Assembly (NCBI RefSeq): GCF_001723285.1
Contig: NZ_LPWG01000014.1
Location: forward strand, 124,001-188,000
Direction: 5' to 3'
DNA length: 64,000 bases
Source: Methyloceanibacter methanicus
GTDB lineage: Bacteria; Pseudomonadota; Alphaproteobacteria; Rhizobiales; Methyloligellaceae
The notes beneath the pieces are model-generated. The model had not been told where the DNA came from and did no database searches. It was given only the letters and a program-made list of their open reading frames with translations. The position numbers and the translations under genes are program-made. The stretch's first letter is position 1; each line of letters starts with the position of its first letter. This document shows positions 14,398 through 40,075 of this stretch, piece by piece.

Positions 14398-14500
14398 CGC
14401 GCGGCCATCAGGCTGCGGACGGGTTGAACCGCCGGTGCGCCGGCAAGGGACTGTCACGCCCAGCCTAGGACTGGCGTGTGAAGATGATACTGTCCTTGCG

Positions 14501-16042
14501 ATGCATGGACCCTTGGCCAATAAGCGGCCCCGCAACGCCATCGAGCGGTTGCGGCGCGCAATTCTCGATCCGGCGACAAGCGCGGTTCACTATGGTGTCG
14601 CCGTAGCTGCTGTCGTTGGCATGGCGTGCCTCGCCTGGGGGCTCTATCCCTGGCTTGAAGGGCGCGCCTCCTTTCTCATCTTTATTCCCGGTCTGGCGAT
14701 CGCGGCCGGTTTCGGCGGGTTCGGCCCCGGTCTCCTGGCAACGCTTCTTTCCGCGGCGATCGGCTTCGCCCTCGTTCCGCCAAGCGACGTCACCCTCCCG
14801 GCCTTGGCCGAGGTCGGCGTGTTCACGGGCGTCGGACTCGGCATTGCCTGGTTGGGCGAACTACTGCGCCGCACGCGTCTGCGCAGCCGCCGCAGCGCCA
14901 AGGCGGTCCGCTCGCGCGAGGCGCATCTGCGCTCGATCCTGGACACCGTTCCCGACGCGACCGTGGTGATCGACGAGACCGGCATGATCCGGTCCTTCAG
15001 CGCGGCGGCAGAGCGGCTCTTCGGCCACCGGGAAGTCGATGTCGCCGGGAAGAACGTGGCGGTGTTGATGCCCTCGCCGTTCCGTGAGGAGCACGACGCC
15101 TATATCTCTCGCTATATCAGCACCGGCGAGAAGCGGATCATCGGTTTCGACCGCGTGGTGACGGGGGAGCGCAAGGACGGGTCCACATTCCCCATGAAGC
15201 TCGAGGTCGCGGAGATGCGATCCGGCGAGCAGCGATTCTTTACCGGGTTCATCCGTGACCTGACGGAACGCCAGAGAACCGAAAAGCAGTTGCAGGATCT
15301 GCAGACGGAGCTGGCGCGGCTGTCGCGCCTGACCGCCATGGGCGAGATGGCCTCGACCCTTGCGCATGAGGTCAACCAGCCCCTGACCGCGATTTCCAAC
15401 TATCTGCAAGGGTGCAACCGGCTGCTGGAGTCCATCGAGGGCGATAAGGTCCCCATGGTGCGCGAGGCGCTCGCGGCCACGACCAAGCAAACGCTGCGGG
15501 CCGGCGAGATCATCCGCCAACTCCGCGATTTCGTGACCCACCACGAGACCGCACGGGATCCCGCGGACATCAACGATCTCGTGGAGGAAGCCAGCGCGCT
15601 GGCGCTGATCGGCGCGCCGGACGAGGGCGTGAAGCCGAGCTTTCTGTTCGACACCTCTCTTCCCGACGTGAAAGTCGTCAAGGTCCAGGTTCAACAGGTT
15701 CTGCTGAACCTGATGCGCAATGCCATCGAAGCAATGGAAGGGTGCGACCCGAAAGTCCTATTGGTGTCCACGGCGCGGTCTTCCACGGATAAGAACGACG
15801 CCGGCGAGCCGATGGTGCAGATCACGGTCGCGGACACCGGGAGCGGCATCTCCGAGGAGATCGCCGACCAGCTGTTTCAGCCCTTTGTGACCACCAAGCC
15901 TAATGGCATGGGGGTGGGGCTGTCGATCTCCAAGCGCCTGGTGGAAACCCATGGAGGGCGCCTGTGGGTCGAACCGAACCCCGGGGGCGGCACGGTCTTC
16001 CGGTTCACGCTGGAGCCCGTCAGAAGCGAGGACAGGGCCTGA
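14501..16042 (+). CDS. fixL: FixL, haem PAS oxygen-sensing histidine kinase
   Basis: Membrane oxygen sensor that phosphorylates FixJ when oxygen is low. The 513-residue protein has an N-terminal membrane part (about residues 28-120), a haem PAS domain (about 145-265) and a HisKA/HATPase kinase. Expected haem-pocket residues are present: axial His198 in [10 protein letters not shown], Arg204, and Arg218 in [10 protein letters not shown] (Bradyrhizobium H200, R206, R220). The phosphoacceptor is His289 in [18 protein letters not shown]1 and G2 boxes ([27 protein letters not shown]) are intact. I chose the ATG at 14501; a longer start at 14435 is possible. Its TGA overlaps the fixJ ATG by one base. 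Confidence 0.95.
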
Positions 16043-16668
16043 TGCCCGTCAATCCCGTCGTGCACATCGTCGACGACGACGAGGCGGTGCGTCAGTCCTT
16101 GGCGTTCATGCTCGGTTCGGCGGGGTTTCCCGTCCGGCTCTACGAGTCGGCCCAACTGTTCCTGGAGGCTGTCGATCCGATGCAATGCGGCTGCTTGATC
16201 ACGGATGTCCGCATGCCGGACATGACGGGCATCGAGCTCCTTGGGCGGATCAAGGACAAGATACCGTTCCTGCCTGCGATCGTCATCACCGGTCATGGCG
16301 ACATTCCGCTCGCCGTCGAGGCCATGAAGGCCGGCGCGGTGGACTTCATCGAAAAGCCCTTTGATGAAGAAGTGCTGCTCAAGGCGGTCGAAGCGGCGCT
16401 TGAAAGGGCGACCGGCGAGGGCGCCGACCAGATGCAGGAGGTCTTGAGCCGGCTTGCAAGCCTGTCCGAGCGCGAGCGTCAGGTCCTCGAGGGGCTGGTG
16501 GCGGGGCAGGCCAATAAAGTGATTGCCGCCGCGTACGGCATCAGTCCGCGAACGGTCGAGGTCTATCGCGCGAATGTCATGTCCAAGATGCAGGCGAACA
16601 GTCTGCCGGACTTGGTACGCATGGCCCTTCTGGCCCATATCGGACCGCCTGCCGGCGCCTCCGAATAG
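16042..16668 (+). CDS. fixJ: FixJ, NarL/FixJ-type response regulator
   Basis: A 208-residue transcription factor phosphorylated by FixL. The receiver domain has the acidic pair DDDE at 11-14, phosphoacceptor Asp55 in LITDVRMPDMTG and Lys105 in IEKPFDE. The C-terminal LuxR-type HTH (SERERQVLEGLVAGQANKVI, then ISPRTVEVYRANVMSKM) is complete. The one-base TGATG overlap with fixL supports the start and coupling. Its likely target here is fixK, whose upstream region has a FixJ-like box. Confidence 0.95.
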   Translation: MPVNPVVHIVDDDEAVRQSLAFMLGSAGFPVRLYESAQLFLEAVDPMQCGCLITDVRMPDMTGIELLGRIKDKIPFLPAIVITGHGDIPLAVEAMKAGAVDFIEKPFDEEVLLKAVEAALERATGEGADQMQEVLSRLASLSERERQVLEGLVAGQANKVIAAAYGISPRTVEVYRANVMSKMQANSLPDLVRMALLAHIGPPAGASE

Positions 16669-16703: not shown

Positions 16704-16717
16704 TTGACGTGGCTCAA
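16704..16717 (+). promoter_or_regulatory. FixK/FNR-type box upstream of the receiver gene
   Basis: TTGACGTGGCTCAA fits the TTG-N8-CAA pattern of FixK/FNR sites. Its centre is 41.5 bases before a start site that would have TAGACT (16739-16744) as -10, which is class II activator geometry. Inferred target is the receiver gene at 16802. Confidence 0.5.
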
Positions 16718-16801
16718 GGTCGCACGCCCCGCATCACATAGACTTTTCAAGTGGCTGTGGTGAACCGCGGGGGCGACGGCCGATGTTTGGGGAAGAAACA
16801 A

Positions 16802-17203
16802 ATGAGTCATGCCGGCACCGTGCTGATTGCCGTTCGCGACGGCACGCTTGCGGATAGTCTAAGGTTTTCGTTGGAGCTCGAGGGCTATGAGACACGTTTC
16901 TGCGACGAGCATGCACTCTCTCCGATCCTGCGGGCACCAAGCCGCCACGGCACCTGCGTGGTGTTGGACCAGGACGTCTTTTCGCGGGTCGCGGAAGCTG
17001 GCGAATCGGAGCTTCCTTGCAATCCCTGTGTCCCGGTCATCCTCATGGTGTCCCAGAAAACCGAGCAGCTCCTTGCCAAAGCCAAGTCAGGCGGGGTCAC
17101 GAAGGTTCTGGAAAAGCCGATCCTTGGCGGGGTCATGTTGGAGACGATCCGGCAAGTGATTGAAAAGAATGGGCGTTCGGGCGGGCCCCTCCTGCCGTCC
17201 TAG
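16802..17203 (+). CDS. single-domain response regulator (receiver only)
   Basis: A 133-residue stand-alone receiver-like protein without output domain. The fold is recognisable: Asp56 in CVVLDQD as likely phosphoacceptor and Lys in KVLEKPILGG, but the first acidic cluster is weak (VRDG). GGGGAAG lies before the ATG. It lies between fixJ and fixK; as I recall a single-receiver gene occupies the same place in Bradyrhizobium. It may modulate the FixLJ relay, for example as a phosphate sink; that is inference. Confidence 0.8.
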   Translation: MSHAGTVLIAVRDGTLADSLRFSLELEGYETRFCDEHALSPILRAPSRHGTCVVLDQDVFSRVAEAGESELPCNPCVPVILMVSQKTEQLLAKAKSGGVTKVLEKPILGGVMLETIRQVIEKNGRSGGPLLPS

Positions 17204-17217
17204 GCCGTATCGGCCTA
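17201..17217 (+). terminator. inverted repeat at the end of the receiver gene
   Basis: TAGGCCG-TAT-CGGCCTA is a perfect 7-bp repeat that includes the stop codon of the receiver gene. It may help end transcription before the fixK promoter; no T-run follows. Confidence 0.4.
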
Positions 17218-17228
17218 CGTAGTTTCCC
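17215..17228 (+). promoter_or_regulatory. FixJ-type binding site in the fixK promoter
   Basis: CTACGTAG followed by TTTCCC resembles the GTAMGTAG high-affinity FixJ site and the conserved GTAGTTTCCC stretch of rhizobial fixK/nifA promoters (7 of 8 core positions). It lies 88 bases before the fixK start. Strongly suggests phospho-FixJ activation of fixK. Confidence 0.6.
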
Positions 17229-17248
17229 TTAGGGAACAGGCCCGAATT

Positions 17249-17262
17249 TTGATCGAGCGCAA
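17249..17262 (+). promoter_or_regulatory. FixK/FNR-type box in the fixK promoter
   Basis: TTGATCGAGCGCAA: a perfect left half (TTGAT) and a CGCAA right half. It differs by one base from the reverse complement of the ccoN box (TTGATCCAGCGCAA), which supports both. Lying downstream of the FixJ site, it could mediate autoregulation; the sign cannot be decided from sequence. Confidence 0.6.
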
Positions 17263-17309
17263 AAATCTCTATCTCTGACGTCAGTCAAATTAACCTTTCG
17301 GGGGTTATC

Positions 17310-17990
17310 ATGCTGACGCCGAATCCCGTGCTCGACTTCCCGCAGACACAAACGTCGCCGACGTCGGCGCTCCTGGCGCATGCTCGAGACGACGACGACC
17401 TTCAGACATCGAGCGTTCCGATCAACTTCGCCCGCAACAGCGAGATTTTCGCCGAGGGCGAGGGGGCCGGATATGTATACAAAATCGTTTCCGGCGTGGT
17501 TCGCGTGTCGAAGTTGCTGCCTGACGGGCGCCGGCAGATCAGCGCGTTTCATCTTCCCGGTGACATGTTCGGTTTCGAAGTGGACGACGTGCATCACGTG
17601 TCCGCCGAGGCGATCGGGCCCGTCAAGGTTCTTGCCTATAAATGGCAGAGCCTGCTGAGCGCGACGTCCTCGCGCGGCTTCGTGCATGAGCTGCTCAACC
17701 GCACCATGATCGGGCTGCGGCAGACTCAGGATCATCTGCTGCTTCTTGGCCGCAAGAATGCGCTGGAGCGGCTCGCGGCGTTCCTGATCGAGATGGCGCG
17801 CCGGACTGGCTCGGACCGCTCGCTGCATCTTGCAATGCCGCGCCATGACATCGCCGACTATCTCGGCCTCACGCTGGAGACCGTTTCGAGGATGTTCGCC
17901 GAACTGAAAGAGGCAGGCATCATCAAGCTCGAATCGGCCCGGCAGGTATCGGTGCTCGACATGTCCAAGCTCGAGGCCATGGCGACATGA
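17310..17990 (+). CDS. fixK: FixK, Crp/Fnr-family regulator without Fe-S cysteines
   Basis: A 226-residue Crp/Fnr transcription factor. Residues 35-130 form the cyclic-nucleotide-like beta barrel and the C-terminal winged helix contains HDIADYLGLTLETVSRMFAELKEAGII with the E-xx-SR recognition pattern of FNR/FixK. There is no cysteine in the protein, so it cannot carry the FNR 4Fe-4S sensor and fits FixK, with oxygen sensing done by FixLJ. Candidate targets are ccoN, the receiver gene and itself. Ends in an ATGA overlap with the cytochrome c gene. Confidence 0.92.
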   Translation: MLTPNPVLDFPQTQTSPTSALLAHARDDDDLQTSSVPINFARNSEIFAEGEGAGYVYKIVSGVVRVSKLLPDGRRQISAFHLPGDMFGFEVDDVHHVSAEAIGPVKVLAYKWQSLLSATSSRGFVHELLNRTMIGLRQTQDHLLLLGRKNALERLAAFLIEMARRTGSDRSLHLAMPRHDIADYLGLTLETVSRMFAELKEAGIIKLESARQVSVLDMSKLEAMAT

Positions 17991-18346
17991 GGCCGTTCTG
18001 CCACGGACTATCGCTTGCTGCCAGTGCGCTCTTGGCGTTCGTGCTCATTCTCGGGCTGGGCTCGGCCGCGCGGACCGAGGGAGCGGTGACGAGTCTGCCG
18101 GACCCCGCGCGCGGCAAGGCGCTGGCCGAGCGTCTTTGCACCAACTGTCATCTGGTTTCCGATCGGCAGACCAAAGCCGTTGCGGACGTTCCAAGCTTTG
18201 CCGCGATCGCCAATAAGCCGGACCAAACCGAAGGCGCGGTCATGGCCCGGATCGTCATGCCCATGCACCCGATGCCGGTGATTCCGATCACCAAGCCCGA
18301 ACTTGAGGATGTCTCGGCCTACATCATGAGCCTGCGCGGAGAGTAG
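17987..18346 (+). CDS. small class I cytochrome c cotranscribed with fixK
   Basis: A 119-residue exported monohaem cytochrome: signal peptide to about residue 30, haem motif CTNCH at 51-55, and a methionine-rich segment IVMPMHPMPVI supplying the likely sixth ligand. It begins inside the fixK stop (ATGA). Probably a soluble periplasmic electron carrier, perhaps feeding the cbb3 oxidase encoded downstream. Specific partner not known. Confidence 0.88.
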   Translation: MRPFCHGLSLAASALLAFVLILGLGSAARTEGAVTSLPDPARGKALAERLCTNCHLVSDRQTKAVADVPSFAAIANKPDQTEGAVMARIVMPMHPMPVIPITKPELEDVSAYIMSLRGE

Positions 18347-18389: not shown

Positions 18390-18403
18390 TTGCGCTGGAT
18401 CAA
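18390..18403 (+). promoter_or_regulatory. FixK box upstream of ccoN
   Basis: TTGCGCTGGATCAA; the reverse complement TTGATCCAGCGCAA nearly equals the fixK box. Its centre is 41.5 bases before a start near 18438, for which TGTAAC (18426-18431) is a fair -10. A TATAAT at 18437-18442 is an alternative -10. Fits FixK activation of the cbb3 operon. Confidence 0.65.
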
Positions 18404-18569: not shown

Positions 18570-20243
18570 ATGGCCGCAACATCGCAGCGGGATGAGTGGA
18601 AAGCGCTTGGGGACATTCTCGCGATTGGGGCCGCCGCGTTCCTGGTTATTCTAGGCCTCGTCCTGGCGGTGGCCGGCGCGGACCTGGTCATGAAGTTTCA
18701 TGGCTGTCTCCTGCTCGGCGCCTCGGGCCTTGCACTTCTGTATATGCTCGCGCAGTTCGTGGAGAGCCGCGAACCGGCCGATACGAGCGGCTACGCGGAC
18801 GGTGTCATCCGCGCCGGCGTGATCGCTACGGTCTTCTGGGGAGTTGCCGGCTTTCTGGTGGGCGACATCATCGCCTGGCAGCTCGCTTTCCCGGTTCTGA
18901 ACTTCGACTTGCCCTGGACGAATTTCGGGCGCTTGCGTCCGCTCCACACCTCGGCGGTCATCTTTGCCTTCGGCGGTAACGCGCTCATCGCCACGTCGTT
19001 CTACGTGGTGCAGCGGACCTGCCGCGCGCGCCTCGCGGGCAAATGGTCGCCCTGGTTCGTGTTCTGGGGCTATCAGCTCTTCATCGTGTTGGCGGCCACC
19101 GGCTATCTGTTGGGCGTCACGCAGAGCAAGGAATACGCCGAGCCGGAGTGGTACGTCGATCTCTGGCTGACGGCCGTTTGGGTCGTCTACTTCCTTGTCT
19201 TTGTCGCCACCATCGCAAAGCGGAAAGAGCCCCACGTCTACGTGGCGAACTGGTTCTACCTGGCCTTCATCGTCACCATCGCCATGTTGCACATCGTCAA
19301 CAATCTGGCGGTGCCGGTGTCGCTGCTGGGCACGAAGAGCTACGTCCTGTACTCGGGCGTCCAGGACGCCATGACCCAGTGGTGGTACGGCCACAACGCG
19401 GTCGGCTTTTTCCTGACGGCCGGCTTCCTCGGCATGATGTACTACTTCGTGCCGAAACGCGCCGAGCGGCCCATCTACTCGTATCGCCTCTCGGTCGTCC
19501 ATTTCTGGTCGCTGATCTTCATCTATATCTGGGCGGGTCCGCATCACCTGCACTACACGGCGCTGCCGGATTGGGCCCAGACGCTGGGCATGACCTTCTC
19601 GATCATCCTGTGGATGCCCTCTTGGGGCGGCATGATCAACGGCCTCATGACGCTGTCCGGCGCTTGGGACAAACTTCGGACCGATCCGGTCATCCGCATG
19701 CTGATCGTCGCCGTCGCCTTCTACGGCATGTCGACCTTCGAAGGCCCGCTGATGAGCATCAAGTCGGTGAACTCCCTGTCGCACTACACCGACTGGACCA
19801 TCGGCCATGTGCATTCCGGTGCGCTGGGCTGGGTTGCCTATATCAGCTTTGGCGCGCTGTATTGCCTCGTGCCGTGGCTGTGGCACCGCAAGGCGCTCTA
19901 CTCGCAGCGTCTGGTCGAATGGCATTTCTGGGTCTCGACGCTCGGCATCGTGCTCTACATCACCTCCATGTGGGTGTCGGGCATCCTGCAAGGGCTGATG
20001 TGGCGGGCCTACGATTCTCTCGGCTTCCTCGAATACTCCTTCGTGGAGACGGTCGAGGCCATGCACCCGTTCTATGTCATCCGGGCCATTGGCGGGCTGC
20101 TCTTCGTCATTGGGGCTCTGTTGATGGCCTACAATCTGTGGCGCACGGCGCGTGGCGATCAGCCCGTCGATGCGACCGATCAACCGTCTGTCGCTGCGGC
20201 TCCTGAGTTCCGGCCTGGCGAATACACGGCGCCGGCGGAATAG
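18570..20243 (+). CDS. ccoN: cbb3-type cytochrome c oxidase subunit I
   Basis: Catalytic subunit of the high-affinity cbb3 terminal oxidase in the inner membrane. The 557-residue protein has about 12 membrane helices. Ligand histidines are in place: His126 (RPLHTSAV) and His415 for low-spin haem b, His413 (IGHVHSG) for haem b3, and His275 ([10 protein letters not shown]), His325 and His326 (AGPHHLHY) for CuB. Length is as usual for CcoN, with a short hydrophilic tail. First gene of ccoNOQP, 224 bases after the cytochrome c gene, with a FixK box in between. Confidence 0.97.
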
Positions 20244-20253
20244 GGAGGGGCCA

Positions 20254-20988
20254 ATGAGCTGGGGAAAGCACGACATCCTAGAGAAAAGCCCGATGCTGAT
20301 GCTGATCGGCATCCTGATCGTGGTGAGCATTGGTGGGCTGATCGAGATCGCGCCGTTGTTCTGGCTGAGTTCGACGGTGGAAAAAGTGCAAGGCATGCGG
20401 CCCTATTCGCCGCTCGAATTGGCCGGCCGCAATATCTATGTCCGCGAGGGCTGCTATCTGTGCCACAGCCAGATGATCCGCTCTCTCAGGGATGAGGTCG
20501 AGCGCTACGGCCACTATAGTCTGGCTGCGGAGAGCATGTACGACCATCCCTTCCAGTGGGGCTCCAAGCGCACCGGGCCGGACCTCGCGCGCGTCGGCGG
20601 AAAGTACTCCGACGAATGGCACCGCGCGCACATGATCGACCCTCGTTCGGTCGTCCCGGAGTCGGTCATGCCGGGCTATCCGTTCCTGGCGAAGCGTGAG
20701 CTGGACTATGACGATATCGCAGATCAGCTGAAGACGAACGCGGTTGTCGGCGTGCCGTACACCGACGAGATGGTCGAGGCGGCGAAGGCGGATCTTGAAG
20801 CGCAAGCCGGCAAGGACGGCGCCGACGTGGCGGCACTCCTGGCGCGCTATCCGAAGGCGCAGGCGCGTTCGTTCGACGGCAACCCGGATGAGATCACCGA
20901 ATTGGACGCCTTGATTGCGTATATGCAGATGCTTGGAACGCTGGTCGACTTCGCCAGTTTCGACGAAGCCGGCCCCAATCTGAGGTGA
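20254..20988 (+). CDS. ccoO: cbb3 oxidase monohaem cytochrome c subunit
   Basis: Membrane-anchored monohaem cytochrome c (244 residues) passing electrons to CcoN. One N-terminal membrane helix (about 13-38), then the haem motif CYLCH at 67-71 in [15 protein letters not shown] and the sixth-ligand region [18 protein letters not shown] precedes the ATG at 20254, ten bases after ccoN. An earlier in-frame start inside ccoN is rejected. Confidence 0.96.
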
Positions 20989-20998
20989 GGACCGGACG

Positions 20999-21175
20999 AT
21001 GGAATACGAACAAGTCGCTTCGATAAGCCAAGTCGCCGCACTCATTTTCTTCATCGTGCTGTTCGCCGGTGTCGTTCTGTACGCGTTTTGGCCCGGCAAC
21101 AAGAAGCGCTTCGACGAGGCGGCAAGACTGCCTCTGGAAGACGACCCAGAGTCCGACAACGAGAAAGACAGCTGA
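20999..21175 (+). CDS. ccoQ: cbb3 oxidase small subunit CcoQ
   Basis: A 58-residue protein with one membrane helix (ALIFFIVLFAGVVLYAFWP) followed by a charged tail ending in acidic residues, matching CcoQ/FixQ, which stabilises the cbb3 complex. Lies between ccoO and ccoP with short spacers (ten and three bases). Confidence 0.92.
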   Translation: MEYEQVASISQVAALIFFIVLFAGVVLYAFWPGNKKRFDEAARLPLEDDPESDNEKDS

Positions 21176-21178
21176 GCC

Positions 21179-22045
21179 ATGGCCAAGAAGGACGCCAACA
21201 CTCCGGAGGAGGTCGGGACCACCGGTCACGAATGGGACGGTATCGAGGAGCTGAACAAGCCCCTGCCCAAATGGTGGCTTTACGTCTTCTATGCCTGCAT
21301 CGTCTGGGCCATTGGCTATTGGCTCGTCTATCCCGCCTGGCCGACCGTTTCGTCCTATTCGAAAGGTTTCATGGGCTATAGCCAGCGCGGGCAGGTCGCC
21401 AAGGACGTGGCCGCCTCGCAGGCGGACAAGGCGGTCTTCCGCGACAAGATCGCTGCGGCCGACATGGAGGCGATCAAGGCCGACCCGGAGCTCTTCAACT
21501 TCGCGCTCGCCGGCGGTCAGGCGGCCTTCGGCGACAACTGCGCGCCCTGCCATGGCCGTGGCGCGCAAGGCGCCTTCGGCTATCCGAACCTGCGCGACGA
21601 CGCATGGCTATGGGGCGGCACGCTCGACGCCATCCATCAGACCATTCAGCATGGCATCCGCGCGGAGGATTCGGCCACGCGCATGAGCATGATGCCCGCG
21701 TTCGGCAAGCTTGGGATGCTGAACCGCGACCAGGTCGCCGATACGGCGGAATATGTCATGTCGCTCTCGGGGAATTCGGACGACGCGGAGGCGGCCGCGC
21801 GGGGCAAGGAGGTCTTCATGACCAATTGCGTGGCCTGTCATGGACCCGACGGCACCGGAAACAAGGCGCTTGGCGCCCCGAATCTGACGGACGAGCTCTG
21901 GCTGTACGGCGGCGACAAGGAAACCATCGTCGAGACGATTACAAATAGCCGTGGGGGCATCATGCCCGCTTGGGCAGGACGCTTGGATCCGGCAACGATC
22001 AAGGAACTTGCGATCTACGTGCATTCCTTGGGTGGCGGACAATAA
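21179..22045 (+). CDS. ccoP: cbb3 oxidase dihaem cytochrome c subunit
   Basis: A 288-residue membrane-anchored dihaem cytochrome. One membrane helix (about 32-52), then two class I cytochrome domains with CAPCH at 121-125 and CVACH at 217-221; the methionine segments MMPAFG and IMPAWAG provide axial ligands. Entry point of electrons into the oxidase. Starts three bases after ccoQ. Confidence 0.96.
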   Translation: MAKKDANTPEEVGTTGHEWDGIEELNKPLPKWWLYVFYACIVWAIGYWLVYPAWPTVSSYSKGFMGYSQRGQVAKDVAASQADKAVFRDKIAAADMEAIKADPELFNFALAGGQAAFGDNCAPCHGRGAQGAFGYPNLRDDAWLWGGTLDAIHQTIQHGIRAEDSATRMSMMPAFGKLGMLNRDQVADTAEYVMSLSGNSDDAEAAARGKEVFMTNCVACHGPDGTGNKALGAPNLTDELWLYGGDKETIVETITNSRGGIMPAWAGRLDPATIKELAIYVHSLGGGQ

Positions 22046-38206: not shown

Positions 38207-40075
38207 TCACTGTTTCCTGCAGAATTTCTTGTCGAGCTTGCAGGCGGTATTCAGGTCCTGCACCGCCTCATCCCGGTCGCCGCGCTTCGCGTGGGCAACA
38301 CCGCGATTGAAATAGGACACCGCCGCGTGGTCGGGCGCCAGCGCGATGGCCTTGGTGAAATCCGCGATGGCAGCGTCAATCTCCCCCAACTTGCCGTAAT
38401 GGCCGCCCCGGAAGAAGTAGCGGGACGCGGCAAGTTCTTTTGCTTTCGTCTCATCCGGATCGTCGGAGCCGATCTCGATGAGCCGCGTGCAAGCCTCGAC
38501 CGCGTCCTTGTGCGGGGCCGTCTTCGCGCCCATGCACAGAGCCACATCCTTGCCGATGCGGATATTTCGGTTTTCCGTCTTCTCTTTCGTCTTGCGTAGG
38601 GCCTGATCCTCGATGGCCTCGGCCCGAGCGGCAAAAATTTTGGCCATGCAGTGCATGTTTTCGGACTCGGTTTTTCCGCCGGGTTGGCCGCAGGTCTTTT
38701 CGAATTCCGATAGCGTCACCGCGGAAAATCCGATGCCGCCGAGTGCGTCCTTCGGAGTCTCGTCCGGTGCGAGGATCAGCGTCCAGAAATTCCATTGAGC
38801 CCCGCGGCCTTCCGCGCCCATGGGGTTGGCCGGGAGCGGGGTGAAGATGTTGATGGCGGCGGATTCCGTCACGCCGAGTGCGGTGACCACGATGCCGAAG
38901 GCGCAGTCGTTGATGAGTTTCAACTCATATTTTCTGTCGGACTCTTTGGTGCCCGGCGCCTTGTCCAGCGATGTCTTGAGACAATCGTTCGCGCTGCGGT
39001 CCGCCTGGCGCGCCGCCTTCTCTTTCACGGTGCGAAGATAGGCGATCTGCTTGTCGTAGCGCGTGCCGCCGGAAAGCTTGGCCGCGGCTTCGTAGTCGGA
39101 AAGGGCTTTGGCGAACTGGCCCATCTCCGCATGGACGGAGCTCGATTGGCGAGGTAGCTCGCGTCCTTGGGCTTCAAACGTATGGCGGCATCGAAGTCCG
39201 CGATCGCCGCGTCATAGTCTTGGTTGTCCGCGTAGAGGTTGCCGCGATTGCCGTAGGCGCGGCGAAGTCGGGATCGAGTTTGATCGCCTTTGTGTAGTCC
39301 GCGAGGGCGTCGTCGGTACGCCCGCGCAAGGCGAGCACGCGGCCGCGATTAAAATAGGTCGTTCCATCGCCCGGCATGACTTTGACGGCCTTATCGAGCT
39401 CGCCGAGTGCCTTGTCCAAGTCCTTCAACTTTTCGTAGACGACGGATTTGTGGATGTGGGCGTTCTGAGGCTGGAACAGGCCGTTCGTCGCAAGGGCCGT
39501 ATCGAAATCGGCAAGGGCCTTTTCATAGGCACCCATATCCGCGTGAACCCGGCCGAGGCCATAATAGGCATAGGCCTTGACCCGGGCGTTGGTGGCGCCG
39601 GCGGCGACGGTCAGGTCCTTGAGTGCGGCGTCATTGTCACCCAGGCGCGATAGGCATCGCCGCGATTGTAGTAGTAGGCGGGATCGGTCTCGCCGGCTTC
39701 GATGAGTGCGGTGCAGGCCTTGACCGTCGCGACCCCGCCGTCCGTATCGGCACATTGGTCTTCATCGTCGGCTTGCTTAGCGGCCGAGCGCTCACTCGAT
39801 TTGCCAGCCGGTTCCTCGAAGAGCTCCTTCATGGACTCCGTCGCCGGGATCGTCTGCTCGAATTGGCCGTCCTTCTTGTCCTTGGAGAGCGCGTCTTCGA
39901 GGGCGTTGGCGTCGACGGGGGCGAGATCGAACTCCGAAAATTCCTTTTGGGTCGATGTCTGGCCGTCTTCGGCGCTGGCCGCTGGCGTGATCAGCAGACC
40001 GGCGGCAAGGCACGACGCTGCGAATATGTGTTGCAAGGGCGCCGACAACAGGCGACCCGTCCGGAAAGCGGCCAT
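38207..40075 (-). CDS. exported TPR-repeat protein (three frameshifts)
   Basis: One long gene of about 623 residues broken by three apparent missing bases near 39648, 39260 and 39143. The signal peptide is around IFAASCLAAGLLITPAASA. A run of tetratricopeptide repeats follows (AYYNRG type units, GDGTTYFNRGRVLALRGRTD, DDALADYTKAIKLDPDF, DAAIADFDAAIRLKPKDAS), then a non-repeat domain with cysteines, and two more TPRs at the C-terminus (DHAAVSYFNRGVAHAKRGD). Probably a periplasmic protein-interaction scaffold; function unknown. Alternatively a decayed gene, but repeats continue smoothly across each break. Confidence 0.65.

Follow-up and report, generated by a model that had tools for sequence, protein, structure and literature searches.

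Genes and proteins of the fixLJ-fixK locus

The window analysed here is a stretch of 64,000 nucleotides of Methyloceanibacter methanicus (contig NZ_LPWG01000014.1, positions 124,001 to 188,000), which carries a cluster of regulatory and respiratory genes in the order fixL, fixJ, a receiver gene, fixK, a cytochrome c gene, ccoNO(Q)P, and ccoG. The fixL, fixJ, receiver, fixK and cco genes and the promoter elements described below are all located on the forward strand. The fixL gene (14435..16042) encodes a haem-PAS oxygen-sensor kinase with PAS, HisKA and HATPase domains. Its PAS domain was aligned to the FixL structures of S. meliloti and B. japonicum, with conservation of the EHDAYI region and His220; the score with the NCBIfam FixL model, 493 bits, did not reach the cut-off of 850. 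The response regulator gene fixJ (16042..16668) reached 310 bits with the NCBIfam FixJ model (cut-off 255), and its product matched B. japonicum FixJ in the PDB (5xso, E 1e-66). Between fixJ and fixK lies a fixT-like single-domain receiver gene (16802..17203).

The fixK gene (17310..17990) encodes a CRP/FNR regulator. Its closest PDB match was Bradyrhizobium FixK2 (4i2o, E 2e-44), and the recognition stretch DYLGLTLETVSR, by which DNA is read, is identical in both proteins, as expected of a FixK2-type regulator; identity to eight Bradyrhizobium-type copies was 42-50%. FixK2 is controlled via the redox-active Cys183, whereas the window FixK, as the first-pass annotation had stated, contains no cysteine at all (0 Cys), and Pro177 occupies the place of Cys183. 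Six further HTH_Crp_2 proteins were found above the Pfam cut-off in the same genome, giving seven with FixK.

A small cytochrome c gene (17987-18346 of the window) overlaps the fixK stop codon, and the two genes are therefore probably co-transcribed. The downstream cbb3 oxidase genes ccoNO(Q)P (18570..22045) are the presumed output of FixK; ccoN, ccoO and ccoP each scored above their NCBIfam cut-offs, and the ccoQ candidate (58 aa, 20999-21175) was assigned by position and length. The FixK box TTGCGCTGGATCAA upstream of ccoN (18390..18403) served as a positive control. In the whole genome, TTGAYNNNNRTCAA was found at 13 places, against one for the reversed control. In the library of papers searched, none linked Methyloceanibacter with FixK.

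The FixJ site and the fixK promoter

The FixJ site TACGTAGTTTCCCTTAGG lies upstream of fixK at 17216..17233, with CTACGTAGTTTCCC at 17215-17228; such a site in this position is expected of a FixJ-dependent fixK promoter. No other window position matched it within three mismatches, and 100 shuffles yielded no match at all. Genome-wide, the 16-mer TAMGTAGTTTCCCTTA had one exact match and one match with three mismatches, against 8+5 matches of the reversed control pattern, and the core of the site had a single match at up to two mismatches. The 16-mer TAMGTARTTTCCCTTA occurred in 11 of 397 genomes of the order, eight of which belong to Methyloceanibacter. The genus sample comprised 17 genomes (G000-G016), of which three were without a FixK match (G001, G007, G011) and one had a weak match only (G012), leaving 13; the genomes dropped are drafts, 77-93% complete. 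In the alignment of these 13 fixK promoters, the FixJ site was free of gaps in all of them, exact in eight, and altered by 1, 2, 2, 3 and 5 mismatches in the remaining five.

The -10 element TATCTC is located at 17270..17275, and its TA is found at the same offset from the FixJ site in 13/13 promoters. From this conserved element we infer a fixK start site (+1) near 17282, by which the FixJ site would extend from -66 to -49 and the FixK box discussed below from -33 to -20. The SELEX class GTAGTTTCCC, as quoted in PMC4999443, is contained in the window FixJ site, and the S. meliloti fixK site given there, TAAGTAATTTCCCTTA, shares 14 of 16 letters with it. The S. meliloti FixJ footprint is reported at -69/-44 in that source, and the window site at -66/-49, as counted from the start predicted by the -10 element, would agree with it. 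The -35-region element CGAATTTT (17243..17250) fits by sequence the CSNAATWT motif described near -33 in other fixK promoters (PMC4999443), and CGAATTT was kept in 9/13 promoters of the genus. Taken together, control of fixK by FixJ, and with it a FixLJ-FixK cascade in a methylotroph, is a well-supported prediction from the sequence.

FixK boxes in the fixK promoter

The first-pass annotation had described a FixK-like sequence next to the FixJ-like one in this promoter, 27 bases further on, and both sequences are indeed present, the distance being correct when counted from the end of CTACGTAG. This FixK box, referred to here as box 1, is TTGATCGAGCGCAA at 17249..17262, and it matches the FixK2 box consensus. 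The relaxed FixK pattern TTGMNNNNNNKCAA gave nine matches in the window, where 2.5 were expected and none of 100 shuffles reached nine; from the window's own density, about 0.01 matches are expected per segment of the size of the fixK promoter. A FixK matrix was trained on the fixT-like and ccoN promoters only, and box 1 tied for second among all window positions. Another good matrix match, at 38910-38923, was dropped since it lies inside a gene.

Box 1 occurs unchanged in four of the 13 genus promoters (G000, G004, G005 and G014), and the remaining nine have no recognisable copy, so that it cannot be regarded as a genus-wide operator; a FixK site conserved in the fixK promoters of relatives, the sign of direct FixK autoregulation, was not found across the genus. 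The eight Bradyrhizobium-type fixK promoters that were readable in the sample contained no FixK box (0/8), unlike the window, and the view that they share box 1 was likewise rejected. The Bradyrhizobium-like cascade with autoregulation predicted by the first-pass annotation therefore holds for the FixLJ-FixK cascade and the FixJ control of fixK, as read from sequence, whereas direct autoregulation through box 1 is possible in one sub-clade only. In the FixK protein tree, the four carriers come close to forming a single group, the placement of G010 relative to them being unresolved, so that the distribution can be explained by a single gain and perhaps a single loss. By this comparison, box 1 is a recent, lineage-specific site. 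In the draft genome of M. superfactus (G013), fixK and the receiver gene are each split into two frames, whether through sequencing error or through decay, and G013 was for this reason omitted from the FixK tree and the receiver alignment.

A second FixK-like box, CTGACGTCAGTCAA (17275..17288), straddles the inferred +1. The pattern nTGAY-N4-GTCAA was found at the same offset in 7/13 genus promoters; it is imperfect in all seven, T never being present at position 1, and as judged by its match box 2 is a weaker FixK-like site than box 1. Its arms are constant while its middle bases vary between lineages, which hints at, without proving, a real site.

The first-pass annotation had left it to the start site whether FixK would activate or block the promoter from box 1, and the promoter of the receiver gene provides the comparison. 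There, the FixK box TTGACGTGGCTCAA (16704..16717), centred near -40.5, is followed after 21 bases by the -10 element TAGACT (16739..16744), and a TA 21-22 bases after the box is found in 12/12 genus members, which is the class II layout. Box 1 has no TA 20-22 bases downstream, and the sole TA in the examined range of 12-35 bases is at 28. With the conserved -10, box 1 thus lies in the spacer between -35 and -10, so that repression is favoured if FixK binds it. FixK at box 1 would therefore be likelier to repress than to activate, and the analysis settles, on paper, which way the box should act.

It is also conceivable that box 1 is a chance match without function and that FixK feedback is solely indirect, via the FixT-like receiver. 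This explanation, to which we give a probability a little below even, is in keeping with the restriction of the box to four of the promoters and with the overlap of its first bases with the conserved CGAATTTT element, from which part of the match comes free. Within the four carriers, 0/12 box 1 bases were changed, against 4/16 flanking, neutral-looking non-motif bases in a count made by eye (p 0.09); this difference is not significant and is suggestive only, the conservation extends over the whole promoter rather than being specific to the box, and box 1 may therefore owe its constancy to that of the promoter around it. Against chance stand the low number of matches expected per promoter segment, the near-top matrix score and the identity of the box in four species. 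Box 1 might instead be read by another CRP/FNR protein, given the six further candidates in the genome, but this is improbable: the recognition stretch of FixK is the same as that of FixK2, and inspection of the six translations by eye showed none with both an ETVSR recognition helix and an FNR cysteine cluster. Positive autoregulation, in which FixK would activate its own promoter from box 1 with a start near 17297, could draw on the good FixK match and on TCAAAT at 17285-17290 as a poor -10, yet it was rejected as very improbable on the box-to--10 spacing, which lacks the TA present in all 12 fixT-like promoters, and it would further leave a leader of about 13 bases and disregard the -10 at 17270 conserved in 13/13.

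The receiver gene and a proposed FixK feedback

The receiver gene is not mentioned in the first-pass annotation. It appears to be an older feedback brake than box 1, with its FixK box as the putative conserved feedback element. The gene is present in 12/13 genus members (the G013 copy being frameshifted), and a FixK box precedes it in all 12, whereas G009 has neither gene nor box. The box and its spacing in 12/12 members predict, from sequence alone, FixK-dependent expression. The protein has a receiver fold, with FixJ as the best PDB match, and a Pfam search with it gave no match. In 11/11 aligned genus sequences the acidic pair was lost, as read by eye; a lone receiver domain lacking the acidic pair is expected of a FixT feedback inhibitor, and the FixT proteins of S. 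meliloti and C. crescentus, as reported in PMC9430884, also lack this pair and are not phosphorylated. With the NCBIfam FixT model, the window receiver was the best match at 33.6 bits, far below the cut-off of 150, and for this reason the gene is called FixT-like here and not FixT. In the genus genomes where the model gave matches, the receiver gene was the best one, except in G013 with its frameshifted copy. None of 41 relatives exceeded 150 bits, a class-wide search of 142 genomes yielded matches in three of them at E 1e-7 but none above the cut-off, and a plasmid search for FixT gave weak receiver matches only.

The negative autoregulation of S. meliloti fixK is reportedly indirect and in need of FixT, going by the title of Foussard 1997; the window receiver differs in falling well short of the cut-off of the FixT model. 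The fixT gene of C. crescentus is described in PMC3751524 as activated by FixK, with a FixK site and a gene number next to that of fixK, and FixK autoregulation of fixK is among the predictions given in PMC4999443. The window gene, unlike the Caulobacter one, sits between fixJ and fixK, and the four-cysteine motif of C. crescentus FixT (C53/C56/C59/C64) has no counterpart in the receiver family of the genus. By analogy with FixT in Sinorhizobium and Caulobacter, the data suggest that FixK activates the receiver gene, whose product may inhibit FixL.

The gene order fixJ-receiver-fixK is shared with B. diazoefficiens, in which the ortholog bll2758 lies between fixLJ and fixK2, as shown in PMC4070659, and fixK2 is likewise driven by FixJ. 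To extend the comparison, 31 Bradyrhizobium-type FixJ loci were considered, namely the 30 of 50 FixJ matches that became loci (family f35) and L053 of B. manausense; the label of f35 is inferred from its layout and similarity to L053. A receiver gene follows fixJ in 22 of the 31 loci (including L053, L080 and L081), and each of the 22 has a FixK box no more than about 130 bases from the fixJ stop, five of these boxes overlapping the stop codon. The expectation is 0.023 boxes per 150-base stretch of these loci with the 22 left out. Among the nine loci without the receiver gene, two have a box within 250 bases, one of these within 130. In the Bradyrhizobium-type loci the class II -10 stands out less clearly (TA at 20-22 in 9/22), and the acidic pair of the receivers is kept by motif in 20/22, the exceptions being L078 with VVDDD (by eye) and L075 with VNDD.

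The receiver box is not universal. In a class-wide sample of 29 loci, L101 has both receiver and box, and post-fixJ receiver genes further afield are mostly without one: at nine loci (L105, L108, L110, L111, L116, L119, L120, L123 and L126) no box lies between fixJ and the receiver-like gene, L105 and L116 holding boxes further on. In L099 (genome G504), about 420 bases after fixJ, a FixK-like box TTGATCCAAAGCAA was seen immediately 5' of the FixJ-like site that precedes fixK, so that the two sites stand in the opposite order to those in the window.

Based on these observations, the following model is proposed for M. methanicus. At low oxygen FixL would become active, and phosphorylated FixJ would bind 17216-17233 at about -57 and switch on fixK from the promoter with its -10 at 17270-17275. 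FixK, having no cysteine to be oxidised, would activate the cbb3 oxidase genes and, from the class II site near -40.5, the fixT-like receiver gene, and the receiver protein would damp FixL, forming an indirect negative loop conserved in the genus. In the sub-clade of the window, FixK would also bind 17249-17262, and the weaker site at +1, and block RNA polymerase as a direct brake. We consider this model as a whole, with FixJ-driven fixK, the indirect loop through the receiver and the direct brake of the sub-clade, to be slightly favoured.

The self-repression of FixK2 in B. diazoefficiens is called unexplained and thought to be indirect in the relevant passages of PMC9104804 and PMC6515984. 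According to a table of PMC6515984, bll2758 is strongly induced in microoxia (log2 4.8 for the protein) and marked '-' for FixK2 targets. Bll2758 is already named as a regulator worth study in the comparative study PMC4999443, a reporter plasmid carrying a bll2758 deletion is listed in a table of PMC9104804, and RPA4249 of R. palustris is called a FixT homologue in a 2026 paper (PMC13327599). We nominate bll2758 as a candidate for the unexplained FixK2 self-repression. More tentatively, as a possible rather than a probable reading, the receiver gene may supply the missing link in FixK self-repression in both Bradyrhizobium-type bacteria and Methyloceanibacter, FixK turning it on from the box behind fixJ and its product damping FixL; Methyloceanibacter would then represent a later state, in which the receiver, its acidic pocket lost, has turned into a pseudo-receiver resembling FixT, and a direct FixK operator has been gained in the fixK promoter of one sub-clade.

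The window promoter is an unremarkable example of a circuit that is already known, and the analysis yields one useful lead. The locus presents the FixLJ-FixK oxygen cascade arranged as a respiratory switch in a methylotroph outside the rhizobia, and the more useful point is the FixK box that stands right after fixJ and before the receiver gene in 12/12 Methyloceanibacter and 22/22 Bradyrhizobium-type loci that have the gene.
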